Assembly (NCBI RefSeq): GCF_001306135.1
Contig: NZ_LGKP01000037.1
Span: forward strand, 1 to 54,008
Source: Herpetosiphon geysericola
GTDB lineage: Bacteria; Chloroflexota; Chloroflexia; Chloroflexales; Herpetosiphonaceae
Direction: 5' to 3'
Length of the DNA stretch: 54,008 bases
This document shows, in pieces, positions 1 to 38,775 of this stretch. Numbering within the stretch: position 1 is the stretch's first letter; each line of letters opens with the position of its first letter. The notes under the pieces are model-generated. The model made no database searches and was not told the DNA's origin. It was given only the letters and a program-made list of their open reading frames with translations. The translations under genes and the position numbers were made by a program.

Positions 1-39
1 CGCCACCCGTTCCAACGGCGGCGTGGATCAACCCGCCGC

Positions 40-1177: not shown

Positions 1178-1205
1178 GCTATCAGACTACCCATGATTGG
1201 GTCTT

Positions 1206-3412: not shown

Positions 3413-3449
3413 AAAAACAGGCCATCCCATAAGGGATGGCCTGTTTTTA
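3412..3449 (-). terminator. Strong hairpin terminator of the sortase operon
   Basis: Arms 3413-3428 and 3433-3448 are perfectly complementary (16 bp) around an ATAA loop, with A5 on one side and T5 on the other. It can therefore act on both strands. It lies 5 nt after the stop of the last operon gene. Confidence 0.85.
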
Positions 3450-3453
3450 ATGA

Positions 3454-4491: not shown

Positions 4492-4502
4492 CCGTCCCTC
4501 CT

Positions 4503-6290: not shown

Positions 6291-6952
6291 CGACTCCGCA
6301 CTGCGGCGAGCACTGGTAGCGGCACCCGCAGCGGCGCATCCAGCAGCAACCGCTGGGGCTGGCGCGTCCCCACGAGGGTCAGCAGCCAGCCATCGCCATC
6401 CGCAACCAGGGTCGCATGCGCCCCAATAATCGGCGGCGTGGGACGGGTATGGATAGCCAGTTGGGTCGTCGCCCGGGCAATCGTCAACGGCGCTGGGTCA
6501 TCCCATGTCACGAGACAGGGCGGGGTCAATAAGCGGCCCATGACTTGGGTCAGCCAGGGCCACACCGTCCGCATGAGCTGGGTGGTCACCAAACCAGGCG
6601 GCAGCGCAACCACGACCGTGCCGCGTCCAACCAGCAGGTCTTCAAGCGCCTCGGCCTCCGTTAGCACCGCATCCAATCCCACGACCTGCACCTGCGGCAG
6701 ATAGCGCAGCGCCTCGGCGACGGCTTGCGGGGCCAAGACGACTGCACTACTGCCCCCGCCCCCGTCCCGCTGCATCATGCGCGGGATGAGGGTTTGGAGC
6801 AATGTCGTCGCGTCGGCGATCGCGGGATGGGTGACCTGCACCACCATTCCGGCGCGCCAAGCCAAATAGAGCGGCTCAGGATAGGCAGCCAGGTAGCCGA
6901 GCAGAATCCCGCGTGCCGCATCGGTCAAAATCGTCAGTTCGCTCTTGTTCAT
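6287..6952 (-). CDS. Unknown cytoplasmic protein of sortase operon, 221 aa
   Basis: The frame can be read open to 7240, but the ATG at 6952 overlaps the upstream stop in an ATGA arrangement, which fixes the start. The sequence (MNKSELTILTDAARG...) has no signal peptide and no transmembrane helix. It contains alternating hydrophobic segments (VVGLDAVLT, GTVVVALPPGL) that look like an alpha/beta fold, and a Gly run (GGGGSS) near residue 64. I cannot assign a family. It is coupled by 4-nt overlaps on both sides. Confidence 0.6.
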   Translation of the reverse strand: MNKSELTILTDAARGILLGYLAAYPEPLYLAWRAGMVVQVTHPAIADATTLLQTLIPRMMQRDGGGGSSAVVLAPQAVAEALRYLPQVQVVGLDAVLTEAEALEDLLVGRGTVVVALPPGLVTTQLMRTVWPWLTQVMGRLLTPPCLVTWDDPAPLTIARATTQLAIHTRPTPPIIGAHATLVADGDGWLLTLVGTRQPQRLLLDAPLRVPLPVLAAVRSR

Positions 6953-7851: not shown

Positions 7852-7867
7852 CAGGGTGTTCCTTCTC

Positions 7868-19437: not shown

Positions 19438-20220
19438 ATGTCGGTTTTATCCCATCTAGATAAACTAGCACGTGATTTGAACATAGCTGAAAATGAGGCA
19501 TTTAAAATTAATCGCTCATTGACCACTCTAGAGTCACGTATTGATAGATATTTTGTGAATGACGTTAAACAACGTTTTCGATTCGGATCATCAGTGAGAA
19601 AGACTATGCTGCCAAGGATAGCAGATCAAACATCGGATGTTGACTACATGGTAGTATTCGATAACAGTAATAATTATAAGCCGCAAACATTTATGACTAA
19701 GCTGAAAAATTTTGCTACTACCTATTATGGTAGTTCTGAAATATATCAATCATCTCCAACTATCGTCTTAGAATTAGAACACATCAAATTTGAACTTGTG
19801 CCATCATATAAATCTGGTATTGGTTTTTATATTCCCGCACCTCGAACAGCGTATACTGATTGGCTATATAGTGATCCTACTGGATTTAATGCAGATGTTG
19901 ATAGTGCAAATATTAATACTAAATTTCTAATGAAACCTTCTATTAGGTTGATCAAATATTGGAACGCACGTAATGGCATATATTCTTCATATGAACTTGA
20001 AAAAACAGTTATTGGTACACAGTACAGTTACTGTAATAACGTTAAAGAATATTTTTTCTTAGCAGTAAATCTTCTTCCGACGTATGGACTTACAGAAACC
20101 AATAAAAGGAAGGTAGAAGGATTTAAATTAAAAATTAATGAAATAAAGAATAATGAACGCAATGGTTTATTGCTTACTGCTGAAAATGAAATTAAATCTT
20201 TGCTTCCTAGTATAAATTAA
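19438..20220 (+). CDS. CD-NTase (CBASS cyclic oligonucleotide synthase), 260 aa
   Basis: Cytoplasmic enzyme that, on phage infection, makes a cyclic oligonucleotide messenger. The nucleotidyltransferase signature FGSSVRKT gives Gly50-Ser51, and QTSDVDYMVVF gives Asp67 and Asp69. The third acidic residue is probably Glu119 in IKFELVPSY. The rest is the helical C-terminal part typical of SMODS proteins. AGGAG precedes the start. The base composition is strongly AT-rich relative to the surface-protein regions, suggesting transfer. The effector gene begins 10 nt downstream. The product nucleotide cannot be told from sequence alone. Confidence 0.85.
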   Translation: MSVLSHLDKLARDLNIAENEAFKINRSLTTLESRIDRYFVNDVKQRFRFGSSVRKTMLPRIADQTSDVDYMVVFDNSNNYKPQTFMTKLKNFATTYYGSSEIYQSSPTIVLELEHIKFELVPSYKSGIGFYIPAPRTAYTDWLYSDPTGFNADVDSANINTKFLMKPSIRLIKYWNARNGIYSSYELEKTVIGTQYSYCNNVKEYFFLAVNLLPTYGLTETNKRKVEGFKLKINEIKNNERNGLLLTAENEIKSLLPSIN

Positions 20221-20230
20221 GGAATATCGT

Positions 20231-21070
20231 ATGAATAATCTGAAATCTGGTATATACAAACATAATATAAGATTTTTGGAAAGAAATCTATTCGGAAGCG
20301 CTAAATTATGGCATTCTATTTCGCTTGCTACTAGGATTATATCATTTTTATTTAGTATCGCCTCCATTTTATTTTCATTTCTCTCCAAATCCTCACCTTT
20401 TGTAACCATTGCTTTGTCTATAACAGCTGATATTTTTCTATGGAGATCCGATAATTATAAATCCGCAGCAGAAGCGCTACATAGAAAACTAGATTTTATG
20501 GATTCGTTTGGATGGCAAATATCCAAGTTAGAAGTAGCTGATATTTTAGCAAACTTACCTGATAGTGTAGCTAAAAAGGCAGAAAATAATCACGACCAAG
20601 AACCTTTCTTTGCAAGTACGCTGGAACCAGGACCAAAGAAGGCATTAGATAATCTAAAGGAATCTACATGGTGGAGTAAGCATCTGTCAAACACCATGTT
20701 GAGTTTGTACTCTCTTGTAACATTCGCATTTATTTCTCTTTCGATAATAATACTTATTGTAAGTATAGTAACTATAAACAACTTTGATATATTATCTACG
20801 GTTGGTAGAATAGTTACCTCAGCTATTTCTTTAGTTTTTTCCCTTGGGTTAATAAAGACCACCTATGGATATTATAAGTTTAATAATAAATCCACACAAG
20901 TAGAATCCCAGATTAAGTCGCTTGAGATGCATAACCTCGAGATAATAGATGTTATAAAGCTTTGGCATGATTACCAATTAGCCCGAGCTTCCTCACCAAT
21001 GATCCCAACAGTTATTTGGTTGATGAAAAGAAAAAAATTGAATAGCTTGTGGAATGAATATCAGTCTTAG
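20231..21070 (+). CDS. S-4TM CBASS effector, 279 aa
   Basis: Membrane effector of the SMODS-associated 4TM family. Two hydrophobic hairpins are visible: residues about 30-72 (ATRIISFLFSIASILFSFL and FVTIALSITADIFLW) and about 155-215 (LYSLVTFAFISLSIIILIVSIVTI and RIVTSAISLVFSLGLI). Between them lies a helical cytoplasmic region with AAEALHRKLDF and WWSKHLS; the C-terminus is helical and basic. In the CBASS model the second messenger opens or assembles the effector to damage the membrane and abort infection. It is co-transcribed with the CD-NTase, giving a minimal two-gene type I CBASS without ancillary genes. Confidence 0.8.
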   Translation: MNNLKSGIYKHNIRFLERNLFGSAKLWHSISLATRIISFLFSIASILFSFLSKSSPFVTIALSITADIFLWRSDNYKSAAEALHRKLDFMDSFGWQISKLEVADILANLPDSVAKKAENNHDQEPFFASTLEPGPKKALDNLKESTWWSKHLSNTMLSLYSLVTFAFISLSIIILIVSIVTINNFDILSTVGRIVTSAISLVFSLGLIKTTYGYYKFNNKSTQVESQIKSLEMHNLEIIDVIKLWHDYQLARASSPMIPTVIWLMKRKKLNSLWNEYQS

Positions 21071-22845: not shown

Positions 22846-25800
22846 TTACGCGCGTGTTCGGAGTATGCCAGATCGCAGAATATCGATACCGTTCTCGCGA
22901 TAGCCAAGGGTGAGAGAAGTCGACAATTGACAGAATGATTCGGCATAATTCTTCAACAGACGAGACTCCTCCAACACGTCACTATCATCAGCCAAATGAT
23001 CGACGAGCGAACGCGTCAGCAAGACAATCAGTTTTGCCCGTGCCCGTGATGCCATCACGTTAAACCGGTTGAGGCTGTAGAGAAATTCATCCTCGCTTCG
23101 GATGAGATCAGCATCGCCCAAGCCAAAGGATGCAATAATCACATCACGCTGTTGTCCCTGAAAGCGCTCAACAGTATCGACTGCGTTCCAAATCGCGGTT
23201 GGATTGTGTTCAGGAAAGATGGTGTGCAGCCGACTGACAATACTACTCATTTGCGCCCGATGCGGTGTAACCACCCCTACCGCTCGCTCCCAGAAGCGTT
23301 TCTCATCATAGGTCTGGCCACTGAGCGCTCGTTCGGTCGTTCCTTGGTACTCGCCTGTCAGCTGTTGATCCAATCGTCCATACAATAGCCAGAGAAGCGC
23401 GGTTACCGCATCCGCTTCAAAAGCATTTGCTTGGCCAGCAACATCATCCTCGTAGATAAAACATACCGCTGGATCAGCAGGGTTTAACACCCGAAGCCAG
23501 TCTGGAGTCCAATAGAGGTCGTTTGGCCACAACGGAGGACGCTCCACGGGTAACCCTGGTGGCAAGATGGATAAGCGCAAATTGGAATGAAATGCTGATA
23601 GTCCCGGATCATAGCCCACCTGTTTGGTAAAATCCACCAGCGTTTGGCAGGACCGATAGTTAATTTGAAGGGGTAGCGGATCAACATTGTGATAATGGCG
23701 AACATAGTTGTAGACCGATCCAACCAGATATTCAAGTCCTTCAGGCGGCGTTGCGGGGTGGATCGGAGGAAGCTGTTTGTCATCACCTGCAAGGATAAAG
23801 GCGGCGTTTGTTGCCGCCTTGGACACGATGAGTGTCGCCTCCGCAACCCCAAGCTGGGATGCCTCGTCGATCAGAATCAGATCAAACCAACGCTTTTGTG
23901 TATGTTTTATTTGAACTGGTGGGGATTTGCTCTTCTTATCAGTTGCAATGGCAAGGTTATGGAGTTGCTGCGGCGGGCCTGCTACAATCACAATGCCTGT
24001 TGGGGCATCGAGGAGCGCTTGTAACGCTTGAACTTCAGATGAGGACTGGGTCTTTTTAACTGGAATAGGCGTAATGGCCGGATGGGTTACCAGTTCTGCG
24101 GGAGGCTCGCTATACTGGCTGTGCAGGCGATAGAGACGGCATGCCTTCGCGGCATTTGTGCCGAAGATAGTTTGCAGCACGGTGTCCAGACCGAGCAAGA
24201 CATTATCAATCGCCGTATAGGTATTAGATGCAATCAGGATACGGAGTGGGTGCTGCTGTTTCTGCGCGCTTAAGACCGCCCCAGCAATAATTGCGCGGAG
24301 TGTTTGGCTTTTTCCCGTACCTGGTGGTCCCCAGATTAATGCCAACCGTTGGGTCAGTGCGGCGCGCCATGCGGCCCATTGCGAATCGTTAAGCGGTTCG
24401 TGCATCTGAAGTTGTGCTTGAACACTATCCACATCCCGGGCAATGGTTTGGGTTGCCAAGCGTGCAGCCTGCCATAAAAATTCGGCTGCTGGTGTCTCCG
24501 GGGTTGAAGCTGCGCTACTCGGGGTGGACCGTCCTAAGGCAAATGCGGCCTCGGCGTGGTCACCCGCTGTAGCAGGATGGCCAATGCCTTGCAACGTCAA
24601 TGATAGTTTTCTCGAAAGATAATCATCCCCGACCGGGTCAAGCATCATATCAGTGGAAAAGTCGATTGCTCCCGCCTGCTCAAGAGGCATGACACAATTC
24701 GTAAAGGCCGGCTTCAGGGCAATCAAGCCATTAACGCGATCAATCGCCTCAACTGATACCTTGGTCAAGCCTGCCTCCGCGATCGTTCCATTCGCATAAA
24801 CGTTGATACCGTGTGACGATGTCAAAGGATAGGCTGGTGTGTTCAGAAATGCCGGATTATGGCGCGGTGACAGCGCATACCCGAGGGCCGGTGGGCGGAC
24901 ATTGAAGGCATACGAGTCAGGATTGAGCGTATAAATGAACAGGTCGGTTATCCGATCAAGCGTCTGTGGAGCCGTTTTTTGCAGGAGGGCGTAGGCCGTA
25001 TTTTTAGCGGCACCATCAAGCCGCTGAAGGAGATGGGCCGATTTGAAGCGGGCCTCCCGCTCATGCGCTGGCATGGTTCGGAGCGTATGATCATCCAACT
25101 CGGCCATGGCCTGATTGAGCCGCGTATATTCGTACCATAGCAGGCTTTGGAATGGTAGACTTGTTAGTTGGGGTGGCTTTTTAACGAGCGGTGGCGCTGC
25201 TGCATGATTGAGCAAGGGCTTCAGGTCTTTTTCCAGCTGTGCTACGACAAATGCAAGGGCATTTAATTTTTTTGCGGTTGTCTCCTCAATTGTTCGCAGT
25301 GTCTGTGTATAATCTCCTCGACGTGTCCACATTTCATGGATGCGTTCACCAGGAATAAGATCACTTAATGGCTCCCGATACAATGGATGCACAGAGATTT
25401 CCCCCACAGACGGGGGATGATAGGTTCTTGCAACATCTAACAGGGTATAGTGATGCGGTACCGGAACCGCAACCGTATTCTGCACGACGCTTGAAACAAC
25501 CGTAAAGGACGATTTATAGGATGCTTCTTCCGCATGGCTCAGCAACTCTGGTGGCGGAAAGAGCCATGCCAAATTCCGCAGCTTGGGATCAGCAAGAATA
25601 GCATCAAGATGGCGACCAACGATCCGCGTTAATTGCTTGCGCTGAGCTTCATCCCAGAGATAGATTTGGTACGTACTACGGGTTTGTTTCTCTGGCTTAC
25701 TTGGATCACCGCGCCGGTTAGCCGTACAATCGTGGTCGTCCTGCTGCTTAACATCATTCATAATCGCGTGCAGTGCGCGCAAGAATTTGAGCAACTCCTC

Positions 25801-27249
25801 ACGTTCGCGTGTCAGGCTGCGCTGATCGACGAGGTAGACCTCTTGAAAGCGGGTGTCCTTCGCCCAACGTTTGCTTTCTGCTTTTTCAGCCGACCCGAAC
25901 GGCAGCGGTTCTTTCCAAAAGGCACGGAGACTTAATGTCGCCGTAATCGCACTTGAGAGATCATAGTCGAGGAAGAGATAGATGTGGAGGTCGGGCCAGC
26001 GTGGCATCAGCGCACTCCCACCCGCGTTAGGAATCGTCCCTGTCAGGTTGTGCGCTAAGGCTCGGGCGCGATGCGGATAGATGGTTCGCTTTGCCCGTAA
26101 CGAGGGGCTACGGTTAAAGATGTTATCCGCGTCTGATACTTGGGCAAGAACGGAGATATCCGCAACCGCGTCTCGGAGCAGTTTGGCTCCCCCTTTTGAG
26201 AGACCCACAACCCGCGAAAGGTGGCCTGTGGCTTCGGCGGTTGGCCAGCAATGCAGCGGGCTGTTAGCCACCGCGCCGGTTCTATCTTTCCATGGATAGC
26301 CAAGAAACTCACATCCATTACAGGTGTTGGTCACATGCCACGGGAGCTGATCCCATGGTGTCTGAAGAACCATGGGGAGTTCTTCGTGAAAAAAGCGGCG
26401 GAGCCGTGGCGCGAATGCATCAAACGGCGCGATCTCAATGTCGTCTTCAAGCGCTGAGGCCAACACGTCCGGCGATGCTTGCTGTCCTTTTTTCTGGTAC
26501 TCATAAAAGACGCGCTGGATCCGGGAGGCTTCATAGGAGCCAGGCCAGACCGCTGGGGCGGCAATGACTACATAGTCCTGATCCCATCCATGATCTTTGA
26601 GCCATGCAGCCAGAGTAATCGAGTAATAGACAACCTCGGCAAAGTAGTGGGCACCCGGTTCGGCTGCTAATTTGATATCGATCACACGCAGGCGCAACCG
26701 ATCATCGGTTGCCTCAAGGGTCACGACATCCCCATTCGGCTGGACAGCTTGCAGCGTTGGGATCTGACCACGATCGGGTTGGATCGTCTCCCAAGCCGCA
26801 GGATGGCGCGCTGGTGGAAGCACTTGAATCAGATCGGGCAAAGCGTTTCCCACATCCAGCGGCATCCCAAAGCGATCGTGCAGGGATGAAAGCCCAACGG
26901 CATCCTTGAAGGTTTGGGTTGCCGCATCGTACTGACCCTCAACAATGAATTGATATGGTTTGAGGTGCGGTAATACGGTAGGAAGCGGCAACGCTGCTGG
27001 CCGATTGTTGGTCATCGTCGCACTGACGTGCACTGCATCCTTCCCAAAGACCGATGCGAGTTCGCTGACTTTTTCGTCTTGCCATGTATAGCCCATGGCA
27101 CCAACTAAACCTAAGCCAGCGCGTGCTTGTTGCCGTTCGGGCATGCCATAGGTCTTCCGCTCTGCATCAGAATACAGATTCAAGAGAAGCTGGCGCTGAC
27201 AGGTGTTTCGCAAATAGAGCGAGAGTGCTTTTTTCTTTAACGATGGCAT
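22846..27249 (-). CDS. Dna2-like protein: Fe-S RecB-family nuclease fused to SF1 helicase, 1467 aa
   Basis: The N-terminal part carries a Cas4/RecB-type nuclease: a D-x-K core at Asp191 and Lys193 (LRVIDIKLA) followed by AEVVYYSITLAAWL. Four cysteines are spaced like the Cas4/AddB/Dna2 iron-sulfur cluster (Cys17; Cys310-x2-Cys313; Cys334). A long helical middle follows. The C-terminus is an SF1B Upf1/Dna2-like helicase: Walker A GPPGTGKSQ (about 972), DEAS box ILIDEASQL (about 1126), GDDKQLPP, INYRSCQTLV, and VERFQGQQRDVIIASF with NVMASRARAKLIVL. The frame is open up to 27582, but the ATG at 27249, one base after the methyltransferase stop, is the sensible start. Probably a DNA-degrading partner of that methyltransferase. 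Confidence 0.85.
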   Translation of the reverse strand: MPSLKKKALSLYLRNTCQRQLLLNLYSDAERKTYGMPERQQARAGLGLVGAMGYTWQDEKVSELASVFGKDAVHVSATMTNNRPAALPLPTVLPHLKPYQFIVEGQYDAATQTFKDAVGLSSLHDRFGMPLDVGNALPDLIQVLPPARHPAAWETIQPDRGQIPTLQAVQPNGDVVTLEATDDRLRLRVIDIKLAAEPGAHYFAEVVYYSITLAAWLKDHGWDQDYVVIAAPAVWPGSYEASRIQRVFYEYQKKGQQASPDVLASALEDDIEIAPFDAFAPRLRRFFHEELPMVLQTPWDQLPWHVTNTCNGCEFLGYPWKDRTGAVANSPLHCWPTAEATGHLSRVVGLSKGGAKLLRDAVADISVLAQVSDADNIFNRSPSLRAKRTIYPHRARALAHNLTGTIPNAGGSALMPRWPDLHIYLFLDYDLSSAITATLSLRAFWKEPLPFGSAEKAESKRWAKDTRFQEVYLVDQRSLTREREELLKFLRALHAIMNDVKQQDDHDCTANRRGDPSKPEKQTRSTYQIYLWDEAQRKQLTRIVGRHLDAILADPKLRNLAWLFPPPELLSHAEEASYKSSFTVVSSVVQNTVAVPVPHHYTLLDVARTYHPPSVGEISVHPLYREPLSDLIPGERIHEMWTRRGDYTQTLRTIEETTAKKLNALAFVVAQLEKDLKPLLNHAAAPPLVKKPPQLTSLPFQSLLWYEYTRLNQAMAELDDHTLRTMPAHEREARFKSAHLLQRLDGAAKNTAYALLQKTAPQTLDRITDLFIYTLNPDSYAFNVRPPALGYALSPRHNPAFLNTPAYPLTSSHGINVYANGTIAEAGLTKVSVEAIDRVNGLIALKPAFTNCVMPLEQAGAIDFSTDMMLDPVGDDYLSRKLSLTLQGIGHPATAGDHAEAAFALGRSTPSSAASTPETPAAEFLWQAARLATQTIARDVDSVQAQLQMHEPLNDSQWAAWRAALTQRLALIWGPPGTGKSQTLRAIIAGAVLSAQKQQHPLRILIASNTYTAIDNVLLGLDTVLQTIFGTNAAKACRLYRLHSQYSEPPAELVTHPAITPIPVKKTQSSSEVQALQALLDAPTGIVIVAGPPQQLHNLAIATDKKSKSPPVQIKHTQKRWFDLILIDEASQLGVAEATLIVSKAATNAAFILAGDDKQLPPIHPATPPEGLEYLVGSVYNYVRHYHNVDPLPLQINYRSCQTLVDFTKQVGYDPGLSAFHSNLRLSILPPGLPVERPPLWPNDLYWTPDWLRVLNPADPAVCFIYEDDVAGQANAFEADAVTALLWLLYGRLDQQLTGEYQGTTERALSGQTYDEKRFWERAVGVVTPHRAQMSSIVSRLHTIFPEHNPTAIWNAVDTVERFQGQQRDVIIASFGLGDADLIRSEDEFLYSLNRFNVMASRARAKLIVLLTRSLVDHLADDSDVLEESRLLKNYAESFCQLSTSLTLGYRENGIDILRSGILRTRA

Positions 27250-27250
27250 C

Positions 27251-28438
27251 TTAGTCTGCTTTCTGTGATACATGGTCGAGCACGAGATCAATGCCAATCG
27301 CGTGACGGCCAAGGGTTTGTGCAACGCTAAGGGTGGTGCCACTGCCCATAAATGGATCGAGCACGGTGCCAGCCGTAAACGCGGCATTGCAATCGCACTT
27401 CGTCCATCCAACCGCGCGTTTGGGCCCAAAAGTAAACTCACGAAAGTAGCCGCCGAGGACTTCTTTTGCATGTGCCGCCAATTGCTGGACACGCGCAGCA
27501 TTGCGACCCGCGCCCTTTTGAATCTGTTTGCCTTTTCCAGCGTCGGAGATGCCGACCGCCCGAATTGCAGCAAGGTGTTCATCAGTTAACCCGTGCTCGT
27601 GAAATAATTCCATTGCCCGGATGGCTTGGGGTCGTGCGGGATCAAGGTCTGCCGTCGGCTCTAGCGTGCGAAGATGCGGACGCTGACAGCTAGGACAGAT
27701 GCGTTCTGGGCAGGCAAGGAGAATAGCGCGATGGGCTAACTCAGGCGGAAAGGGAGCAAGATGCTCACTCTTACTTCGGGTGGGATACAATTCCCACAAA
27801 TCGTCAGGAATCGTTGCTGCAGCACCGTCCCACACATCGCCGGGGTTTGCCGCTTTGCCCCGATCAGCCGCTAATGCATAGAGATCAAAATAAATGTCGC
27901 GGGCATTGCGTGCCCGCGTGAGATGAAAGACCGATTCATGCCGTGATGCGAGGCGATAGGAAACGGGTTCCGGACGACCCACGGATTTTGCCCAGACAAT
28001 ATGATTCACAATATTCCATCCCGCTGCACGTGCACCGATCTCGAACATGGCTGGTATCCCGACAAGGAAGCCGTCTTTATAACTATCGCCTAGATTGAGA
28101 AAGAGCGATCCGTGGGGGCGAAGCAGACGAATCCAACCCGCTAAAATAGCTATTAAGGCCGTAATATACGCCTCGGGGGTTGCCTCCTGGCCCAGTTGAT
28201 CAGGATGGCCATAGTCGCGACGTTGCCAGTAGGGCGGCGAGGTAACAATAACATCCACACTGCTATTCGGGAGAAACGACAAATCACGGGCATCGCCTTG
28301 ATAGATGGTCGTCGTGGTTGACTGTGCAGGAGTACGTGCTCCCGGATGCTGTTCTGGTGTATAAGCGTCACTTGGGAGAAGCAGAGCTTCTTCAAGGAGT
28401 GGAGATTGAAGGAGCGTATCATTTTCTCGTGCGTGCAT
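27251..28438 (-). CDS. Beta-class DNA methyltransferase (m4C or m6A), 395 aa
   Basis: Cytoplasmic SAM-dependent DNA methyltransferase. Catalytic motif IV TSPPYW (Ser67-Tyr70) precedes the SAM motif I VLDPFMGSGTT near the C-terminus, the beta-class order. SPPY favours N4-cytosine methylation but does not prove it. A zinc-knuckle-like set (CPERICPSC and later CDC) lies before motif I, as in related enzymes. GAGG precedes the ATG. Its stop is one base before the start of the Dna2-like gene, giving a two-gene operon. It presumably protects self DNA from the nuclease-helicase. The target site is unknown. Confidence 0.88.
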   Translation of the reverse strand: MHARENDTLLQSPLLEEALLLPSDAYTPEQHPGARTPAQSTTTTIYQGDARDLSFLPNSSVDVIVTSPPYWQRRDYGHPDQLGQEATPEAYITALIAILAGWIRLLRPHGSLFLNLGDSYKDGFLVGIPAMFEIGARAAGWNIVNHIVWAKSVGRPEPVSYRLASRHESVFHLTRARNARDIYFDLYALAADRGKAANPGDVWDGAAATIPDDLWELYPTRSKSEHLAPFPPELAHRAILLACPERICPSCQRPHLRTLEPTADLDPARPQAIRAMELFHEHGLTDEHLAAIRAVGISDAGKGKQIQKGAGRNAARVQQLAAHAKEVLGGYFREFTFGPKRAVGWTKCDCNAAFTAGTVLDPFMGSGTTLSVAQTLGRHAIGIDLVLDHVSQKAD

Positions 28439-29018: not shown

Positions 29019-31520
29019 ATGGCTTTAAAGAAATCGCACTTGTATCGTTCACTCTGGAGTAGCTGTGATGCACTACGGGGTGGCATGGATGCATCCCAAT
29101 ATAAAGATTATGTTCTGACCTTACTCTTTATGAAATATGTCTCCGATAAAACGGATAGCCTGATTGAGATTCCGACTGGAGGCAGCTTTGCGGATATGGT
29201 CAAGCTCAAGGGACAAAAAGATATTGGCGATCAGATCAACATTATTATTCGTCGATTGGCCGATGCGAATGGACTGCGTGGCGTAATTGATATTGCTGAT
29301 TTTAATGATGAGACCAAGCTGGGAAGTGGGAAGGAGATGCAGGACAAGCTCTCCAAACTCATCGGCATTTTTGAAGGGGTGGACTTGCGGGCGAATCGCG
29401 CCGATGGCGATGACTTGCTGGGTGATGCCTATGAGTATTTAATGCGCAACTTTGCCACAGAATCGGGCAAGAGCAAAGGGCAATTCTATACCCCTGCCGA
29501 AGTATCGCGCGTGATGGCCAAGTTGCTTGGAATAGGGGCTGATACCCGTCCCGACCACACGATCTATGATCCGACGTGCGGCTCCGGCTCGCTCTTGCTT
29601 AAAGTCGCCGATGAAGCTCCCAACGGGATCTCGATTTATGGACAGGAAATGGATAATGCCACCTGGGCGTTGGCGCGAATGAATATGTTCTTGCATGGCT
29701 ATGCCACGCATGAGCTTCGCCGTGGTAACACCTTGGCGGCTCCCCAGTTCAAAGATGCCTATGGAAAGTTAATGACCTTTGACTTTGCCGTGTCGAATCC
29801 GCCCTTCTCGACCAAAGCATGGTCGAGTGGATTTGACCCACTTGCGGATGTCTTTGAACGCTTTGCCTATGGTGTTCCGCCCGAAAAGAATGGGGATTAT
29901 GCCTTCTTGCTGCATCTGATTAAATCGCTCAACAGCAGGGGCAAAGGGGCCATCATTTTGCCGCATGGGGTGTTATTTCGGGGCAATAAAGAAGGGGATA
30001 TTCGGCGCACCTTAATTCAGCAAGGCGTGATCAAAGGGATTATTGGGTTGCCCGCGAACTTGTTTTATGGCACGGGGATTCCTGCCTGCATTCTGGTGAT
30101 TGATAAAGCCCATGCCCATACCCGAACTGGTATTTTTATGATCGATGCCTCAAAAGGCTTTATCAAAGATGGCAATAAGAATCGGCTGCGGGCGCAGGAT
30201 ATCCATAAGATTGTGGATGTCTTTACCGCCTTGCGCGATATTCCAGGCTATTCCCGCATGGTTCCGGTGAGCGAAATTGCTTGCAAAACAACTAATAATT
30301 ACAATTTGAATATTCCGCGTTATATCGATGCGAACGAACTCGAGGATCTGCACGATCTGGATGCCCACTTAAATGGTGGCATCCCTAACCGCGATCTGGA
30401 TGCCTTAGCACCTTACTGGCGTGAGTTTCCGAGCCTACGCAATGCCTTGTTTCAACCCGTGCGGCCTGACTATTCCCAACCCATCGTTGCGCCCCAGCAG
30501 GTCAAAGCCACAGTCTTGGCCCATCCTGAGTTTCAGCGTTATCACCAGTCGGTGTTGGATGTCTTTACGGCATGGAAAGCGGCTCATGCTGCACAGTTAC
30601 GGGGCCTTCGGCAAGCGATCCATCCGAAAGCCGTGATCCACGCCCTCTCGGAAGATTTATTAGCCAATTTTTCCACGGTTAAGCTCTTGGATCGCTATGC
30701 GACTTATCAACGACTGATGGACTATTGGGAATCGGTGATGCAGGATGATGTCTATCTGATTGCTGCCGATGGATGGGTGCAGGCAGCGAGTCCGCGCGGG
30801 ATTATCGACGATGCTGCTAAGGGGATTCGCGAAACGCCGGATCTCGTAGTTGGGGGCAAGAAGTATAAGGTGGATCTGATTCCCCCAGCGCTCATCATTG
30901 CGCGGTATTGTCAAAAAGAACAGGCTGCATTGACGAAGGCACAAACCACGGCGGAAGCTGCTGCGAGTGAGCTTGAGGCATTTCTTGAGGAATACACGAG
31001 TGAGGAGGGCTTGCTGGCCGATGCGCTGAATGAAAAAGGGAGATTAACCCGCATTAGTATCAAGGATCGGCTAAAAGCATTACGGGCTGATGGGCATCAA
31101 TTGCCGTTCGGACGTGATCCCGAGGAGGAGGCTGAAATTGCGGCGCTCAAAGAGGGATTGTTCTTGTTTGATCGGGATGCTGATGCGACGAAAGCCGTCA
31201 AAGAGGCGCAAATAGTGCTTGATAGAGCAGTATTGGAGCGCTATGAGATGCTGGCGCGGGAGGAAGCCGCGATTCAAGCATTGGTTGTGGATGATAAGTG
31301 GATGGCGACGATTCAAGCGATGATTGTCGATCAGTATGTTGCAGCAGAACTGGCGACGATCACCAGCGAAGTCCAACGAGTGATGCAGCAGTTTGCCCAG
31401 CGTATGAAGGAGCTTGACGAACGCTATGCCCATCCATTATCCACGCTGGAGCAGGATGTAGCAGTATTGAGTGATCGCGTGGCTGCGCATTTGAAACGCA
31501 TGGGCTTGCAGTGGGAGTGA
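29019..31520 (+). CDS. hsdM: Type I restriction-modification methylase HsdM, 833 aa
   Basis: N6-adenine methyltransferase subunit of a type I system. The N-terminal helical HsdM domain (LYRSLWSSCDALRGGMDASQYKDYVLTLLFMKYVSDK) precedes the SAM motif DPTCGSGSLL (184-193) and catalytic NPPF (260-263). Typical HsdM proteins are about 500-550 residues. Here about 280 extra residues form a coiled-coil-rich C-terminus (LTKAQTTAEAAASELEAFLEEY, RVMQQFAQRMKELDERY), as in longer HsdM variants. hsdS starts 3 nt after its stop. It is first in the operon hsdM-hsdS-hsdR-peptidase. Confidence 0.95.
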   Translation: MALKKSHLYRSLWSSCDALRGGMDASQYKDYVLTLLFMKYVSDKTDSLIEIPTGGSFADMVKLKGQKDIGDQINIIIRRLADANGLRGVIDIADFNDETKLGSGKEMQDKLSKLIGIFEGVDLRANRADGDDLLGDAYEYLMRNFATESGKSKGQFYTPAEVSRVMAKLLGIGADTRPDHTIYDPTCGSGSLLLKVADEAPNGISIYGQEMDNATWALARMNMFLHGYATHELRRGNTLAAPQFKDAYGKLMTFDFAVSNPPFSTKAWSSGFDPLADVFERFAYGVPPEKNGDYAFLLHLIKSLNSRGKGAIILPHGVLFRGNKEGDIRRTLIQQGVIKGIIGLPANLFYGTGIPACILVIDKAHAHTRTGIFMIDASKGFIKDGNKNRLRAQDIHKIVDVFTALRDIPGYSRMVPVSEIACKTTNNYNLNIPRYIDANELEDLHDLDAHLNGGIPNRDLDALAPYWREFPSLRNALFQPVRPDYSQPIVAPQQVKATVLAHPEFQRYHQSVLDVFTAWKAAHAAQLRGLRQAIHPKAVIHALSEDLLANFSTVKLLDRYATYQRLMDYWESVMQDDVYLIAADGWVQAASPRGIIDDAAKGIRETPDLVVGGKKYKVDLIPPALIIARYCQKEQAALTKAQTTAEAAASELEAFLEEYTSEEGLLADALNEKGRLTRISIKDRLKALRADGHQLPFGRDPEEEAEIAALKEGLFLFDRDADATKAVKEAQIVLDRAVLERYEMLAREEAAIQALVVDDKWMATIQAMIVDQYVAAELATITSEVQRVMQQFAQRMKELDERYAHPLSTLEQDVAVLSDRVAAHLKRMGLQWE

Positions 31521-31522
31521 TA

Positions 31523-32764
31523 ATGGCGATGCTGAATCCAACGACTGAATCAGGGACTGATGCCGTTCCGGCAGGGTATAAACGCACCGAGGTGGGGATT
31601 ATTCCCGAAGATTGGCCTGTTGTTCAATTAGGTGATTTGGCGACTTTTATAACCGGACCTTTTGGTAGTGCAATCCATAAGTCGGACTATATCGATTATG
31701 GGATTCCTTTAATTAACCCCATGCATATTATTGAGGGATCTATTGTACCTTCATCAAATATGTCTATCAGCAGCGAGGCAGCAAAAAACTTAGTTAGTTT
31801 TCATTTACGGTTTGGCGACGTTATTATTGGTAGACGTGGTGATATGGGTCGTTGTGCGGTGGTACAAAAGGAAAATGTTGGATGGATTTGTGGAACGGGA
31901 TCATTAATTATTCGCTGTTTTAAGGATGTATCTCCTAGTTTTATTCAAAGAATATTGTCAAGTCCACAGGCTATAGCAGCTATAGAAGATACCTCTGTGG
32001 GTTCGACGATGATCAATCTTAATCAAAATACACTTAAATTACTTTCTATCCAATATCCTCCCTACCAAGAACAACGAGCGATAGCCGAAGCTCTATCTGA
32101 TACCGATGCCCTCATTACGGCATTGGATCGCCTGATTGCGAAGAAGCGAGCCATCAAACAGGCGACGATGCAGCAGTTGCTTACAGGGAAAACACGCTTG
32201 CCTGGGTTTGATGGCGAGTGGCATACTAAACATTTAGGTGATATCTTGTCAATCAAGAAAGGACAGCTTATCACCGAATCTTCTATATCGCATGGTTCTA
32301 TCCCTGTTGTTGCAGGTGGAAAGAAGCCTGCATATTTTCATAATCGGGCAAATCGTTTTGGTAAAACGATAACAATCAGTGCTTCCGGTGCTAATGCAGG
32401 GTATATACACTTTTATGACATTCCAATTTATGCATCCGATTGCCTAACGATTAGTGAGGGGGTAAGCTATTGTCTAGAATTTATCTATTACCAATTACTC
32501 AATCAACAACAGATAATTTATGATTCGCAAACGGGTGGAGCACAACCCCATATTTATTCTGGACATTTGAGTTCTCTTACATTTGTACTCCCCTTACTTG
32601 ACGAACAACGTGCGATTGCTACGGTTTTATCAGATATGGATGCTGAACTGTATGCCCTTGAGCAACGACGTGCGAAAACCATCCAGATCAAACAAGGCAT
32701 GATGCAGCAATTACTCACCGGACGGATTCGTTTGCGTGCGCCATTGGCTGAGGAGGATGCATGA
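31523..32764 (+). CDS. hsdS: Type I specificity subunit HsdS, 413 aa
   Basis: DNA-recognition subunit with two target-recognition domains. Each is followed by the conserved helical repeat: QEQRAIAEALSDTDALITALDRL...QATMQQLLTGKTRLPGF (about residues 180-235) and DEQRAIATVLSDMDAELYALE...QGMMQQLLTGRIRL (about 360-405). The second recognition domain lies between the repeats. The ATG at 31523 is preceded by GGGAG and is preferred to the GTG at 31511. Its stop overlaps the hsdR start (ATGA). The recognition sequence cannot be predicted from sequence. Confidence 0.93.
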   Translation: MAMLNPTTESGTDAVPAGYKRTEVGIIPEDWPVVQLGDLATFITGPFGSAIHKSDYIDYGIPLINPMHIIEGSIVPSSNMSISSEAAKNLVSFHLRFGDVIIGRRGDMGRCAVVQKENVGWICGTGSLIIRCFKDVSPSFIQRILSSPQAIAAIEDTSVGSTMINLNQNTLKLLSIQYPPYQEQRAIAEALSDTDALITALDRLIAKKRAIKQATMQQLLTGKTRLPGFDGEWHTKHLGDILSIKKGQLITESSISHGSIPVVAGGKKPAYFHNRANRFGKTITISASGANAGYIHFYDIPIYASDCLTISEGVSYCLEFIYYQLLNQQQIIYDSQTGGAQPHIYSGHLSSLTFVLPLLDEQRAIATVLSDMDAELYALEQRRAKTIQIKQGMMQQLLTGRIRLRAPLAEEDA

Positions 32765-35700
32765 CGAGTGTCGGCGAAAAGGAACGTGCTACCCAAGAGA
32801 CGGTGATTGAATGGTTCACCGACACCCTTGGCTATCGCTATCTTGGGTTCTGGAAAGAGCGCCCTAACAATCGCAACATCGAAGAATCCTATCTTTCGGC
32901 ATGGCTGGAATCGCGGGGATACGACGCGGCGATCATCACCAAAGTCATCCGAAAAGTCACCGATGCCGCAACGCTGGGCGGGACGAAAACCCTCTATGAT
33001 GCCAATCGGGCAGTCTATGATCTGTTGCGCTATGGGGTTAAGATCCAGCCTTCATTGGGCGAACCCTACCAGACGGTGTGGCTCGTCGATTGGGAGACTC
33101 CAGCGGCCAATGATTTTGGGATTGCTGAAGAAGTCACGGTGGCCGGAGTGCATGGGAAACGTCCTGATCTGGTGCTCTATCTGAATGGGATTGCGGTTGG
33201 GGTCATCGAATTAAAACGCTCAACCGTCTCGGTCAGCGAAGGTATTCGGCAGAACCTCGACAGTCAACGCAAAGAGTTTATTCGCCCCTTTTATACGACC
33301 GTGCAGTTGGTGATGGCGGGCAATGCGACCGAAGGATTACGCTATGGGGTGATCGAAACGCCCGAAAAGTATTACCTCGAATGGAAAGAAGACAACAATT
33401 CCATTCCCTCGCCCTTGTTGCGTGGACTCAGCCAAGTGTGTTCCAAACCACGGCTGCTTGAACTCATCCATGACTTTATGGTCTTTGATAGCGGCACGAA
33501 AAAGACCTGTCGGCATAATCAATACTTTGGCGTGAACGCGGCCCAAACCCATATTCAGCGCCGTGAGGGTGGGATCATCTGGCATACCCAAGGCAGCGGC
33601 AAAAGTCTCACGATGGTCTGGCTGGCTAAGTGGATTCGTGAGCATGTCCCGCAGAGTCGCGTGTTACTGATTACGGATCGCACCGAGCTTGATGAACAGA
33701 TTGAAGGCGTGTTCTTAGGAGTCCAAGAAACGATTCATCGCACGTCGAGCGGAGCCGATCTGGTGCAGGTCTTAGGGCGTGACGAGGAATGGTTGATCTG
33801 CTCGCTGATTCATAAGTTTGGCCGCAGCGACGAAGGCGATATTGATGGATTTTTGGAAGAGATTCGCCGCCATCTCCCCGCGCAATTTCAGCCACGCGGT
33901 GACATCGTGGTGTTCGTTGATGAATGTCACCGGACGCAATCCGGCAAACTCCACCACGCCATGAAAGCCCTCTTGCCGAATGCGATGTTAATTGGCTTTA
34001 CCGGAACCCCGTTGCTGAAGCGCGATAAGCAGACCAGTATTGAAGTCTTTGGCCCCTATATCCATACCTACAAATATAACGAGGCGGTGCGTGATGGGGT
34101 AGTGCTGGATTTGCGCTATGAGGCCCGCGATATTGACCAACGCCTGACGGCTCCCGCCAAGATTGATCAGTGGTTTGCCAGTAAAACCAGCGGGTTGACC
34201 GATGTTGCCAAAGCCCAGATCAAACGGCGGTGGGGCACGCTCCAACAGGTCTTGAGTAGCCGCGAACGGTTACAAATGATTGTGGCCGATATTCTGATGG
34301 ATATGGAAACGCGCGATCGGCTGAAGAGTGGTCACGGGAATGCGTTGCTGGTATCCAGTAGTATTTATTCAGCCTGCCGCTTGTATGAGTTTTTTCAAGC
34401 AACAGATTTAGCAGGCAAGTGTGCGATTATTACATCCTATAAACCGTCGCCTGCCGATATGAAGGGCGAGGAGAGCGGCGAAGGGTTGACCGAGAAACTG
34501 CGCCAGTATGCGATCTATTGTACGATGCTTGCGAAGCACTTTGACGAGCCAGCTGAAACGGCCATGTATAAAACCGCCCAGTTTGAGCGCGAAGTCAAGC
34601 ACCGCTTTATCCATCAACCGGGCCAGATGAAGCTCTTGATTGTTGTGGACAAACTCTTGACCGGATTTGATGCGCCACCTGCAACCTATTTATATATTGA
34701 TAAGCAGATGCGCGATCATGGGTTGTTTCAGGCTATTTGTCGGGTCAATCGGCTCGATGGCAACGATAAAGCCTATGGCTATATTATTGATTATAAAGAC
34801 CTGTTTCAATCCCTGGAACATTCCATTCGTGAGTATACCGGAGCCGCCCTTGATGGCTATGATGCCGCTGATGTCGCAGGCTTGCTCAAGGATCGTATCC
34901 AGATGGAGCGCGAGCGTCTTAATGAAGCCCGTGAGGCCGTGATGGCTTTGTGTGAGCCAGTCTTGGCCCCGCGTGATACGCCTGCCTATTTGGCCTATTT
35001 TTGTGGATCGAGTGATCAGCCTGCGCAGCTTAACGAGCGTGAGCCACGGCGGGTCTTGCTGTATAAGCTGGTGGCGACCCTCGTTCGGTCTTATGCGAAT
35101 CTCGCTAATGACATGGCTGCCGCAGGCTACAGCGCTGCCGAAACCCAAGCGATCAAAGCCGACGTGACCAAGTACGAAGCCATCCGTAGCGAAGTCAAGA
35201 TCGGAAGTGGCGACGCGGTGGATCTGAAGCGGTTTGAGCCAGCGATGCGTCACCTGATTGATACCTATATTCGGGCGGATGCGAGTGAAAAAGTATCGGC
35301 GTTTGAGGATATTCCGTTGGTGCAATTGATTGTGGAGCGCGGCGAGCAGGCCATTGACGCACTTCCCCCAGGAATTGCCACCAATCAGCAGGCGGTTGCG
35401 GAGACGATTGAGCAGAACGTGCGGCGGGTGATTCTTGATGAAATGGCGATCAACCCGCGCTATTACGAGCGCATGTCCGATCTGCTGGATGCACTGATTC
35501 AAGCCCGCAAACAACAAGCGCTGGACTATCAGGCATACCTTGCCAAGATGGTTGCCTTAACTCGTACTGTCATGCAGCCAGAAACCCAAACCACCTATCC
35601 TCCAACCATCACGAGTGGGGCACTGCGGGCTTTGTATGATACGTTGGAGGGGCAGCTTGGTGTAGCTCAGACCGATGGTGGTGAGGGGCAGGATGCCGCA

Positions 35701-35880
35701 ACGATTGCCGCGTTGGCCGTGCGGTTGGATACGACGATTCGCCAGGTCAAAAAAGCCCAATGGCGCGATAATCCCTTTAAGCTGCGTGAAGTCCAGCAGG
35801 CGATTCGCACCGTGCTGCATCCTGATGTGGCACTCGCTGCCATGATCATGGAGATTGTGAAACAGCAACATGACTACTAA
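32761..35880 (+). CDS. hsdR: Type I restriction endonuclease HsdR, 1039 aa
   Basis: Restriction and translocation subunit. The N-terminal PD-(D/E)xK nuclease core is RPDLVLYLNGIAVGVIELKR (about 135-152). The SF2 translocase has Walker A GSGKS (about 278-282), DECH box (387-390), a motif III GFTGTPL, and the motor C-domain with VDKLLTGFDAPPATYLYIDK. The C-terminal helical region is the usual HsdR domain that binds the methylase core. AGGAGG precedes the ATG. Full length with all key residues present, so probably active. It overlaps the peptidase gene by 11 nt. Confidence 0.95.
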   Translation: MTSVGEKERATQETVIEWFTDTLGYRYLGFWKERPNNRNIEESYLSAWLESRGYDAAIITKVIRKVTDAATLGGTKTLYDANRAVYDLLRYGVKIQPSLGEPYQTVWLVDWETPAANDFGIAEEVTVAGVHGKRPDLVLYLNGIAVGVIELKRSTVSVSEGIRQNLDSQRKEFIRPFYTTVQLVMAGNATEGLRYGVIETPEKYYLEWKEDNNSIPSPLLRGLSQVCSKPRLLELIHDFMVFDSGTKKTCRHNQYFGVNAAQTHIQRREGGIIWHTQGSGKSLTMVWLAKWIREHVPQSRVLLITDRTELDEQIEGVFLGVQETIHRTSSGADLVQVLGRDEEWLICSLIHKFGRSDEGDIDGFLEEIRRHLPAQFQPRGDIVVFVDECHRTQSGKLHHAMKALLPNAMLIGFTGTPLLKRDKQTSIEVFGPYIHTYKYNEAVRDGVVLDLRYEARDIDQRLTAPAKIDQWFASKTSGLTDVAKAQIKRRWGTLQQVLSSRERLQMIVADILMDMETRDRLKSGHGNALLVSSSIYSACRLYEFFQATDLAGKCAIITSYKPSPADMKGEESGEGLTEKLRQYAIYCTMLAKHFDEPAETAMYKTAQFEREVKHRFIHQPGQMKLLIVVDKLLTGFDAPPATYLYIDKQMRDHGLFQAICRVNRLDGNDKAYGYIIDYKDLFQSLEHSIREYTGAALDGYDAADVAGLLKDRIQMERERLNEAREAVMALCEPVLAPRDTPAYLAYFCGSSDQPAQLNEREPRRVLLYKLVATLVRSYANLANDMAAAGYSAAETQAIKADVTKYEAIRSEVKIGSGDAVDLKRFEPAMRHLIDTYIRADASEKVSAFEDIPLVQLIVERGEQAIDALPPGIATNQQAVAETIEQNVRRVILDEMAINPRYYERMSDLLDALIQARKQQALDYQAYLAKMVALTRTVMQPETQTTYPPTITSGALRALYDTLEGQLGVAQTDGGEGQDAATIAALAVRLDTTIRQVKKAQWRDNPFKLREVQQAIRTVLHPDVALAAMIMEIVKQQHDY

Positions 35881-36696: not shown

Positions 36697-38376
36697 ATGT
36701 ACTTAAAGTCGATTACAATCCAAAAATTTGGCCCATTCTTTGAGCCAGCGACATTAATCCTTGAACCTAGTATCACAGTGTTGACGGGACGAAATGATAC
36801 AGGGAAATCGGCTCTGCTTCGGGCTATCCAGTTACTGTATTCTCGTAAGGCTATTGTTGAGGATGATGCGAATATTGATTGGTTATCAGAGAATACAGTA
36901 TCTTGGAAAGATGATCCTGATATTCGATGTAATGCTATTTTTACAACGAAGAATATGCAACAATATGTTACAGGAAGCAATATAACCAATGAAACAGGAG
37001 ATATTGAGTTACAATTCACTATGTCACCAAATATGAGGAAGGCTCGTGTTAATAAAGTTATCTATGATGATCGCAAAGAAGAAGGTAGTATGGTACTTAA
37101 AGGATTGCCGGGTCTTATGGCATTTCCAATAGAGGAGAACATTAATGGTCTCTTGATTGAAGAAAAAATGAACCAATTAGAAATAGAGTTAATGACGTTA
37201 GCGTTTGGTGAAAATGCAATAAAAAGAATCCAAGATTTAAATAAAACAAATTTTTTAAAGATATTAAAAGAAGCAAACAAAAAAATTAATGATTTATTGA
37301 AAAGCATGCTACAGAATAGTAATCTAGATATCGTTTTAGAAATTTCTAGAATCTCATCTAATCCTCTAGAATTGTCAATCAGTATTTTGGATGAATACCA
37401 AGGAGAAACTCCCCTTAATGTGCGAGGTTATGGTGTCCGGAAGATTATATCGCTTCTTGTTGCTCTCCTTACGAGAAAAGATACTAAAAAGCCACTTTTA
37501 ATTCTCTTTGATGAACCAGAGAATGGACTTCATGCCGATGCTCAGCATTTTCTTCGGATAGTTTTGGAAGGGCTAGCAAAAAATGAGAATATTCAAGTTA
37601 TTTATACAACCCACTCCCCATCTATGATTAATCCAATGCTTCCAACACACATTCGTCTCTTGGAACGAAAAACAGTTGATGGCAAGGCAACAACCATTAT
37701 TAATAATCAACCAATCGAGGAGAATTTTGCGCTTGTTCGATCAAGCCTTGGGATGAACCCGGCTGATTCGCTCCTTTATGCGCCGATTACGATTGTCGTC
37801 GAAGGAATTACAGAAGTATTTACGCTTCCCTTAATTCTAATGAAGTTCCACGCTCATCAGGTTGCTGGATTCGAGAAAGTAAAGGTCTTTCTTTCAATTA
37901 TCCATCTTCTTGATGGCCGAGGTGGTGAGATGGATTATTGGTGCCGAATGGCGCAATCACAAGGATGTCAACCTATTATTTTTGCTGATGGTGACCAACG
38001 CAAAAGATTGGCGCGGCCCGGCGTTCGTGAAAAATTAGGGGATATCCCAAAGGTCTTGCTTGATGAAGGTTCAGAAATTGAGGACACTGTTTCCAAGAAT
38101 ATCTATTTTTCTGCGCTTCGTGTCATCATAAAAGAGGATGGAATAACAAATGAAGCATTTGAGCATTGGCTATCCACTTCTAGCCTTGCTCCACAGATGA
38201 TGTTTAGTAAAAAGGTTGATGCTTGGCTTGCAAAAGAGTTTCCATTGATAAGTCACGATTACAATAAGCCGCAAACTATGGCGAAAGCAATAGAAATAGC
38301 ATCCATTGAGGATATTAATCAAGCACCTTTTTTAGAACTGGTTCAAACTATTGATAGACTTTTGAATCAGCGGTAA
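36697..38376 (+). CDS. OLD-family ATPase/Toprim nuclease, 559 aa
   Basis: N-terminal ABC/SMC-like ATPase: Walker A GRNDTGKS (31-38), a signature-like GYGVRKIISLL, and Walker B ILFDEPENGL with Asp272-Glu273 and the following His in LHADA. C-terminal Toprim nuclease: VVEGITE (Glu369) and FADGDQRKR (Asp431, Asp433). OLD-family proteins are DNA nucleases used in phage defence. The next gene is not a UvrD helicase, so this is not a Gabija pair. It begins 98 nt after the type I operon and is more AT-rich than it, suggesting separate acquisition. Confidence 0.85.
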   Translation: MYLKSITIQKFGPFFEPATLILEPSITVLTGRNDTGKSALLRAIQLLYSRKAIVEDDANIDWLSENTVSWKDDPDIRCNAIFTTKNMQQYVTGSNITNETGDIELQFTMSPNMRKARVNKVIYDDRKEEGSMVLKGLPGLMAFPIEENINGLLIEEKMNQLEIELMTLAFGENAIKRIQDLNKTNFLKILKEANKKINDLLKSMLQNSNLDIVLEISRISSNPLELSISILDEYQGETPLNVRGYGVRKIISLLVALLTRKDTKKPLLILFDEPENGLHADAQHFLRIVLEGLAKNENIQVIYTTHSPSMINPMLPTHIRLLERKTVDGKATTIINNQPIEENFALVRSSLGMNPADSLLYAPITIVVEGITEVFTLPLILMKFHAHQVAGFEKVKVFLSIIHLLDGRGGEMDYWCRMAQSQGCQPIIFADGDQRKRLARPGVREKLGDIPKVLLDEGSEIEDTVSKNIYFSALRVIIKEDGITNEAFEHWLSTSSLAPQMMFSKKVDAWLAKEFPLISHDYNKPQTMAKAIEIASIEDINQAPFLELVQTIDRLLNQR

Positions 38377-38775
38377 ACTGTGTTTGGATTGGAATCCAAG
38401 GCAATAGTGACCAAAAATGATATAAAAAGCAAATAGAAATGCTGGTTTTGTTGTATCCAGCATCTTTACAATACTGTATTTACATTGATTATTGCTTTTA
38501 TTCCCCCATGTAGCGTATCATCAGGCGGTGGAGAAATGGTAACAACACACGCCGTTGAAGCGTATCAAATATTGTCAGTCCAAAATACGCAGATCATAAA
38601 CCGGTCTATTCATACCATAGATAAAGATCCCACACATCAATAACAATACATATGATGTTTATCGTATTTTGGCCACCCATAAGTTCGCCTTTTCAGACAG
38701 TATTCCAGCGTTTAATCCAAAAGAAGAGATGGGATTCTAATCTACCCATCCTTGAATATTTCTATGGAGGGAATG
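38377..38775. other. Intergenic region between OLD and ATPase genes
   Basis: AT-rich spacer with no gene. Near its start a stem (ATGCTGG at 38439-38445 with CCAGCAT at 38457-38463) followed by CTTT may end the OLD transcript. The promoter of the next gene is presumably in the second half. Confidence 0.4.
38439..38467 (+). terminator. Weak terminator after the OLD gene
   Basis: 7-bp perfect stem, 11-base loop rich in T, followed by CTTT. Position after the stop fits a terminator, but the loop is long. Confidence 0.35.

Follow-up and report, generated by a model that had tools for sequence, protein, structure and literature searches.

A methyltransferase gene paired with a Bad-like nuclease-helicase gene in Herpetosiphon geysericola and its relatives: a candidate restriction-modification-like module

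The gene pair and its methyltransferase

We analyzed a 54,008-nucleotide stretch of DNA (the window; contig NZ_LGKP01000037.1, positions 1 to 54,008, assembly GCF_001306135.1) of Herpetosiphon geysericola (Chloroflexota), in which a DNA methyltransferase (MTase) gene lies directly upstream, on the same strand, of a gene for a large nuclease-helicase (Table 1). A preliminary description of this DNA, made from the sequence alone, had reported a beta-class MTase and, one base behind it, a 1467-aa protein; both open reading frames (ORFs) and the beta order of the MTase motifs were found, and the letters of the junction, TAA-G-ATG, place the genes one base apart. The pair sits in a stretch of lower GC content. 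Promoter- and terminator-like sites in the window showed no excess over shuffled sequence, and none of the tRNA genes and Rfam families searched for in the window was found.

Table 1. Features of the window, with strand and basis of assignment
Feature	Position	Strand	Basis or remark
Beta-class DNA MTase, 395 aa (motif IV TSPPYW, motif I DPFMGSGT, cysteines C243, C248, C251, C348, C350)	27251..28438	-	ORF, motifs, Pfam
Nuclease-helicase, 1467 aa	22846..27249	-	predicted iron-staple RecB-type nuclease + RNase H-like centre + SF1B helicase
Residues 1-360, predicted Fe-S RecB/Cas4/Dna2-type nuclease domain	26170..27249	-	motifs, homology to Bad
C17, fourth cysteine of predicted Fe-S site	27199-27201	-	alignment
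Nuclease motifs D139 (PD), D191/K193 (VIDIK), E205-x3-Y209	26623..26835	-	family alignment
C310-x2-C313-x20-C334, three cysteines of predicted Fe-S site	26248..26322	-	alignment
Residues 420-725, RNase H-like/DEDD 3'-5' exonuclease fold, catalytic residues partly kept	25075..25992	-	structure model
Walker A GPPGTGKS, residues 974-981	24307..24330	-	motif
Residues 941-1467, SF1B (DNA2/UPF1-like) helicase	22849..24429	-	Pfam, sequence relatives
CBASS-like pair, SMODS cyclase + 4TM effector	19438-21070	other strand	about 1.8 kb beyond the nuclease-helicase end
Type I HsdM-HsdS-HsdR operon, complete	29019-35880	divergent	begins 580 bp from the MTase
OLD/AriA/GajA-like ATPase	36697-38376		profile match

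In the MTase, motif IV (SPPY, residue 67) precedes motif I (residue 361), and the protein matches Pfam N6_N4_Mtase at E 9.3e-33. The best of the PADLOC models is MTase_II (E 1e-116), MTase_III not being among the best 25 of 59 PADLOC families. The structure model is of low confidence (predicted local distance difference test score, pLDDT, 63.5) and is matched by Foldseek to TTHA0409, CcrM and M.PvuII. Five cysteines located before motif I are common to the window MTase and four aligned relatives, and perhaps form a zinc site. An SPPY motif hints at methylation of cytosine at N4, and DPPY at methylation of adenine at N6.

Domains of the nuclease-helicase

The N-terminal part of the large protein had been described as a RecB/Cas4-type nuclease with Asp191 and Lys193. 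Both residues fall within the VIDIK motif, and the assignment is supported by the remaining nuclease motifs and by homology to Bad, a nuclease-helicase of Geobacillus. The alignment of the family comprises 19 full-length proteins, the window protein included, the others being 27-72% identical to it; D139, K193, E205 and Y209 are conserved in all of them and D191 in 18. The spacing C-x292-C-x2-C-x20-C (C17, C310, C313, C334), which predicts an iron-sulphur (Fe-S) site, was confirmed. Variation of these cysteines among homologues had been named in advance as a reason to give the idea up; they proved invariant (19/19), and were likewise conserved in all 18 rows of a separate alignment that included Bad-type and Dpd nucleases.

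The C-terminal part carries matches to AAA_11/AAA_12 of Pfam within residues 953-1410, and its best solved sequence relatives are DNA2, IGHMBP2, SEN1 and UPF1, in agreement with the superfamily 1B (SF1B) helicase originally proposed. The SF2 motor subunit of a Type I or Type III enzyme was rejected as an identity, since the motor matches AAA_11/AAA_12, DNA2 and UPF1 instead.

The N-terminal part matched no Pfam family up to E 1, and no Pfam, PADLOC or NCBIfam model was found that extends past the helicase part of the window protein or its relatives. DpdJ, MkoA and PLuB were rejected as identities, their matches being confined to the helicase, as were NCBIfam assignments with scores far under the cut-offs. 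A UvrD-Cas4 fusion was also rejected: PDDEXK_1 was unmatched up to E 1, the match to UvrD was weak (E 5.1e-5), and the nuclease motifs lie in the N-terminal part of the protein. As the PADLOC (2023) and NCBIfam models that we searched cover only the helicase part, loci of this kind probably go unrecognized at present.

A profile of the nuclease matched 19 of 2255 ORFs in loci outside the family and none of the reversed ORFs; judged by position, all 19 are parts of nuclease-helicases or Dpd nucleases. Against PDB sequences this profile gave no match up to E 10, and a profile of residues 1-940 gave rows only at E >0.5.

A structure model of residues 1-940, built from 17 sequences (mean pLDDT 81.9), revealed a further domain in the middle of the protein. 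The whole model had no Foldseek match under E 0.001 in the PDB or among viral models, and its list of fold matches was dominated by residues 419-725, with weak rows of viral PD-(D/E)XK proteins (best E 0.34). Using VIA-align, which re-aligns only the entries of Foldseek's own list, residues 420-686 were superimposed on the exonuclease region of a family B polymerase (5mdn_A; Z 13.4, root-mean-square deviation 3.1, 184 aligned) and the RNase H-like region on RNase T (Z about 10). D430 is kept in 19 of 19 members, and residue 533 is acidic in all 19. The Asp at position 428 is replaced by Asn or Phe in the clade whose partner MTases have permuted motifs (see below), and because of this loss the RNase H-like centre may be a non-catalytic or altered exonuclease.

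Relationship to Bad and other known systems

Bad of Geobacillus stearothermophilus (1245 aa) has been purified and contains iron; it is a single-stranded DNA endonuclease and a 5'-3' translocase and helicase (Wilkinson et al. 2020, PMC7430649). According to the available part of that paper, a Type III-M-like MTase adjoins Bad in all of the Geobacilli examined, and Bad was proposed to be a novel restriction enzyme. The idea of an MTase and a DNA2-like nuclease acting as a new restriction enzyme is thus already in print. What is new here is a separate branch always found with an MTase, three layouts of the partner, and an extra domain.

For comparison we used three Bad-type ORFs of 1267-1280 aa from a sample of genomes around Bacillus testis. 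We regard these as Bad or close orthologues of it: subtracting 13 from D163 and K828 of the first alignment row gives the D150 and K815 of PMC7430649. The window family and Bad are homologous along the chain (hhalign, 1150 columns, 23% identity, E 1.5e-65), with the same order of an N-terminal iron-staple nuclease, a middle region and a C-terminal SF1B helicase. The nuclease alone aligned with that of Bad at E 5.9e-17 and the middle region at 2.7e-5 (probability 75%), while the helicase profile matched the three Bad-type proteins at 3.5e-74 to 5.8e-76. C17, C310, C313 and C334 align with the four Bad cysteines, and D191 with Bad D150. The window protein is nevertheless a distant homologue and is longer than Bad (1467 versus 1245 aa).

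The partners differ as well. The Bad-type loci L135 and L136 (loci and genomes are cited by numbers preceded by L and G, respectively) contain MTases of 497 and 499 aa located 500 and 269 bp away; these are Mod-like DPPY enzymes encoded downstream, whereas the window MTase has SPPY, matches a Type II model and lies 1 bp upstream. Judged by the best 25 of 59 PADLOC families, the window partner is not of the Type III Mod kind that accompanies Bad in Geobacilli. No MTase was found in the retrieved stretch of the third Bad-type locus, L134, and in that locus (1-9637) the immediate neighbours of the Bad-type gene are ZorA, ZorB and an EH_Signature gene, an arrangement that is Zorya-like. A more distant Bad-like nuclease-helicase of 1254 aa occurs in the gammaproteobacterial sample (L146, 740-4504), with no MTase found in 10 kb. 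Several short IGHMBP2/UPF1-like helicases (L055, L061, L070, L071, L072, L078) were considered as Bad and dropped.

Three other groups of proteins resemble the window protein. (i) Proteins of the TM0106 (TIGR03491) type, combining a RecB-like nuclease with AAA_11-AAA_12, have the same domain order and cysteine pattern; L006 matches TIGR03491 below the cut-off, while the window protein is unmatched up to E 0.1. In relatives other than the Bad-type (L134-L136) and Dpd (L005, L007) ones, the MTase kinds queried were found in 0 of 16 loci. (ii) The SF1 helicase module and Fe-S nuclease of Dpd are homologous to those of the window protein, but Dpd encodes the nuclease separately and has the helicase as the front of DpdJ (the L005 ORF matches DpdJ 31-2128); the window protein is not a full-length DpdJ, the model having matched only at 44-479 of 2112 positions. 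In L005 (8653-17237) and L007 (6552-15243) the DpdJ-like ORF is long and is directly preceded by a separate Fe-S nuclease of 753 and 768 aa, respectively; PADLOC gave no match for either nuclease at E 1e-5, and the L005 nuclease has a weak match to TIGR03491. (iii) The UvrD-Cas4 fusions associated with Type III Mod/Res, as presented in the available part of PMC5704561, likewise place a RecB-family nuclease and an SF1 helicase beside MTases; they differ in having a UvrD helicase and a C-terminal nuclease of Pfam PDDEXK_1. The accessible part of PMC12458937 contains nothing on an MTase/nuclease-helicase pair. L137 (734-11620) contains another nuclease-helicase, with MotA/ExbB and OmpA-family genes at a distance of a few kb; this arrangement, too, is Zorya-like.

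Linkage of the two genes among relatives

N6_N4_Mtase is matched 12 times in the host genome, the two halves of the window MTase accounting for two of these matches; an MTase neighbour could therefore arise by accident, and conservation of the arrangement is the test. Relatives were collected by similarity of the nuclease-helicase alone, from (i) plasmid and phage records, (ii) 400 genomes of the window's phylum, and (iii) genome and viral contigs searched with a 5-row profile, where relatives were taken from among the matches listed and counts are to be read as "at least". Later samples, searched with a 19-row profile, comprised 299 genomes around Bacillus testis (order level, which we take to be the Bacillales), 398 around Chromobacterium (phylum), 297 around a Pyrinomonadaceae genome (phylum) and 369 around a gammaproteobacterium (class).

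This survey of neighbourhoods, suggested in the preliminary description as a check, showed that all 20 full-length members have an MTase next to the nuclease-helicase; they are the 19 aligned proteins and one found afterwards by profile search (G1226/L145), whose MTase lies 3 bp from the nuclease-helicase. The gap between the genes is -28 to +27 bp in 19 of the 20 and 216 bp in L030. Left out of this set were L096 (same coordinates and scores as L094), the damaged loci L002, L023 and L026, genome G825, whose gene is divided over contigs L139/L140 and has a permuted MTase next to it, and short copies of places already represented (L001, L008, L009, L010, L017, L021, L099-L101, L132, L133, L141 and L142).

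The control consisted of 21 stretches containing helicases that are related to the family but lie outside it. The nuclease profile has a match in 19 of them; L037 is a fragment, and the Dpd loci L005 and L007 carry the nuclease as a gene of its own. The same MTase queries, supplemented with Mod, HsdM and PglX, matched 2 of the 21 stretches, both Bad-type. The difference in MTase linkage between family and control gives a Fisher p of 9e-10 if kinship is ignored.

Other systems also occur upstream of the pair in relatives: Type III Mod/Res in L030, a UvrD-Cas4+Mod+Res operon, whose UvrD-Cas4 gene is distinct from the pair, in L033, L091, L092, L094 and L098 (5/20), and BREX PglX/PglZ/BrxL in L034 and L090. 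The earlier statement that no DrmA/B, BREX or Type III Res gene accompanies the pair thus holds for the window ORFs that were scanned and fails for the family (Type III in one, UvrD-Cas4+Mod+Res in five and BREX in two of 20 loci). L145 has another MTase some 1.5 kb past the pair. Within a single close clade the neighbour switches between BREX and UvrD-Cas4+Mod+Res but the MTase does not change, and for this reason the pair is best seen, on comparative grounds, as a unit of its own that travels with other systems.

Partner methyltransferases

Three layouts were found among the partner MTases: (i) the beta layout, encoded upstream of the nuclease-helicase and on its strand (window, L022, L030, L089), (ii) a permuted layout of 369-385 aa in which motif I comes first and motif IV second (12 loci), convergent with the nuclease-helicase in 11 of the 12 and on the same strand in L093, and (iii) a large layout of 684-721 aa, located upstream in L024, L031 and L032 and downstream in L095. 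The large MTases are weakly related to HmaB and DUF1156 enzymes. The motif-I pattern had no match in the MTases of L089 and L095. Since the permuted pairs are mostly convergent, linkage persists without co-transcription.

A maximum-likelihood tree of the 19 nuclease-helicases and three outside rows supported the beta clade (100/100), the permuted clade (100/100) and the group L024+L031+L032 (93/96), although long branches and odd letter composition, in L024, L030 and L031 among others, call for caution in reading it. The large-layout label needs 3 changes on this tree, a value equalled or beaten by 500 of 500 shuffles (with L024 entered as "none" and L095 apart). The layout of the partner thus tracks the ancestry of the nuclease-helicase for two layouts and for three of the four large-layout members.

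Distribution and decay

The family is patchily distributed. Matches were found in 5 of 400 genomes of the window's phylum, including the window's own genome and the degenerate copies of G260 and G329, and in 2 of 398 (one of them divided over contigs), 2 of 297 and 1 of 369 genomes of the other samples, centring genomes counted; in the 299 genomes around Bacillus testis there was no full-length match. Members occur on plasmids and, at nine distinct loci out of 10, on contigs of the viral collection, and some contigs carry, as judged by eye, phage tail-like genes on one side.

Within the sample we saw no intact nuclease-helicase of the window family without an MTase. Three loci appear decayed. 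In L026 an MTase stands beside a 172-aa remnant of the nuclease-helicase. In L023 (1-3859), from G260, which encodes a 70%-identical relative, the MTase has lost its end and the nuclease-helicase its first part. In L002, on the megaplasmid of Methylorubrum extorquens AM1, the nuclease-helicase is split over two frames, no MTase was found within 22 kb, and the whole record has no match to one large MTase. Decay looks asymmetric in these few cases, as would be expected if the nuclease-helicase alone is harmful. The L023 deletion, which joins the MTase start to the helicase end, is either real or an assembly fault.

Interpretation

We consider it reasonably probable that the two genes form a restriction-modification-like module. 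The compact restriction-modification or degradation system of the preliminary description stands in so far as the unit and the four cysteines are conserved and the homology to Bad extends over the full length, but the same idea had already been printed for Bad (PMC7430649). In such a module the MTase would mark its sites on host DNA, and the nuclease-helicase would load onto unmarked incoming DNA, which its SF1B motor would unwind, 5'-3' by analogy with Bad and DNA2, and which the Fe-S nuclease would cut. As no DNA-specificity domain was recognized in the nuclease-helicase, and related nuclease-helicases keep their MTase layout, target recognition probably falls to the MTase as well; by analogy with Type I, Type III and BREX systems, it would then aim an MTase/nuclease-helicase complex. 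A bolder proposal, which we regard as possible but short of probable, is that the family forms a distinct restriction-modification class spread across Chloroflexota, Acidobacteriota and Pseudomonadota, in which the restriction enzyme would combine an SF1B motor, an Fe-S nuclease and a repurposed exonuclease fold, and its modification-and-specificity subunit would have been recruited from MTases of three layouts.

Several observations weigh against reading the pair as a restriction-modification module. The absence of a recognized specificity domain is one. The family members are partly kin and not all independent: at 80% identity the 19 aligned proteins collapse to 15 clusters, and at 60% to 11, so the independent cases are fewer than the rows. 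The control queries came from the family and from Bad, Mod, PglX and HsdM, so that other kinds of MTase could escape them, and some control contigs end near the gene. The large layout is not one clade, L095 standing on a long branch apart from L024, L031 and L032, and Bad-type relatives have an MTase beside them in 2 of 4 stretches (L135 and L136; not L134 or L146). Another restriction-modification-like system (Type I, Type III, UvrD-Cas4+Mod+Res or BREX) lies near the pair in 9 of 20 loci, which leads to an alternative that we judge unlikely: the nuclease-helicase may be an ancillary enzyme that finishes DNA cut by its Type I, Type III or BREX neighbour, the MTase protecting only local sites. 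The Type I operon of the window and the systems near the eight other loci named above fit this possibility, and a comparable role was argued for UvrD-Cas4 in the available part of PMC5704561; however, none of the ten query proteins occurs in the retrieved stretch of 11 of the 20 loci (just 7 kb in the case of L031), and the neighbours are swapped inside one close clade while the MTase stays constant.

It is rather improbable that the pair consists of a DNA2-like repair or replication enzyme and a regulatory MTase, with no role in defence. DNA2 and AddAB relatives do act in replication or resection, as described in the available part of PMC7430649, and the part that enzymes of the DNA2 type also play in repair counts against the restriction-modification reading, but the patchy distribution, the presence on plasmids and beside phage-like genes, and the variation of partner layout by branch all argue against it. 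We give still less credence to a modification-dependent enzyme, aimed at, or switched by, DNA that bears the partner's mark. Linkage alone does not tell the sign of the effect; self-marking of the host would, however, be suicidal unless the MTase were silent, and the MTase motifs are conserved.

If the pair does restrict, the enzyme would unwind DNA while destroying it, unlike the motors of Type I and Type III systems, and its modification partner would have changed during evolution. The remark on Bad in Geobacilli becomes a testable rule: in our sample, this branch is never intact without an adjacent MTase.

Neighbouring genes

The scan of neighbouring genes covered part of the window's ORFs (20 with Pfam and 10, partly the same, with PADLOC), and among these DrmA/DrmB, BREX (PglZ/BrxC/PglX) and Type III Res were not found. 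A ResIII match of Pfam (E 2e-18) was considered as a Type III Res and rejected, as it belongs to the Type I HsdR (HSDR_N, PADLOC REase_I). The other systems recognized in the window are listed in Table 1. The OLD/AriA/GajA-like ATPase gene is followed by one for a 576-aa protein with a weak PDC-M28C match (36697-40482 together), and a cytochrome P450 gene (15956-17368) lies inside the window's lower-GC stretch.

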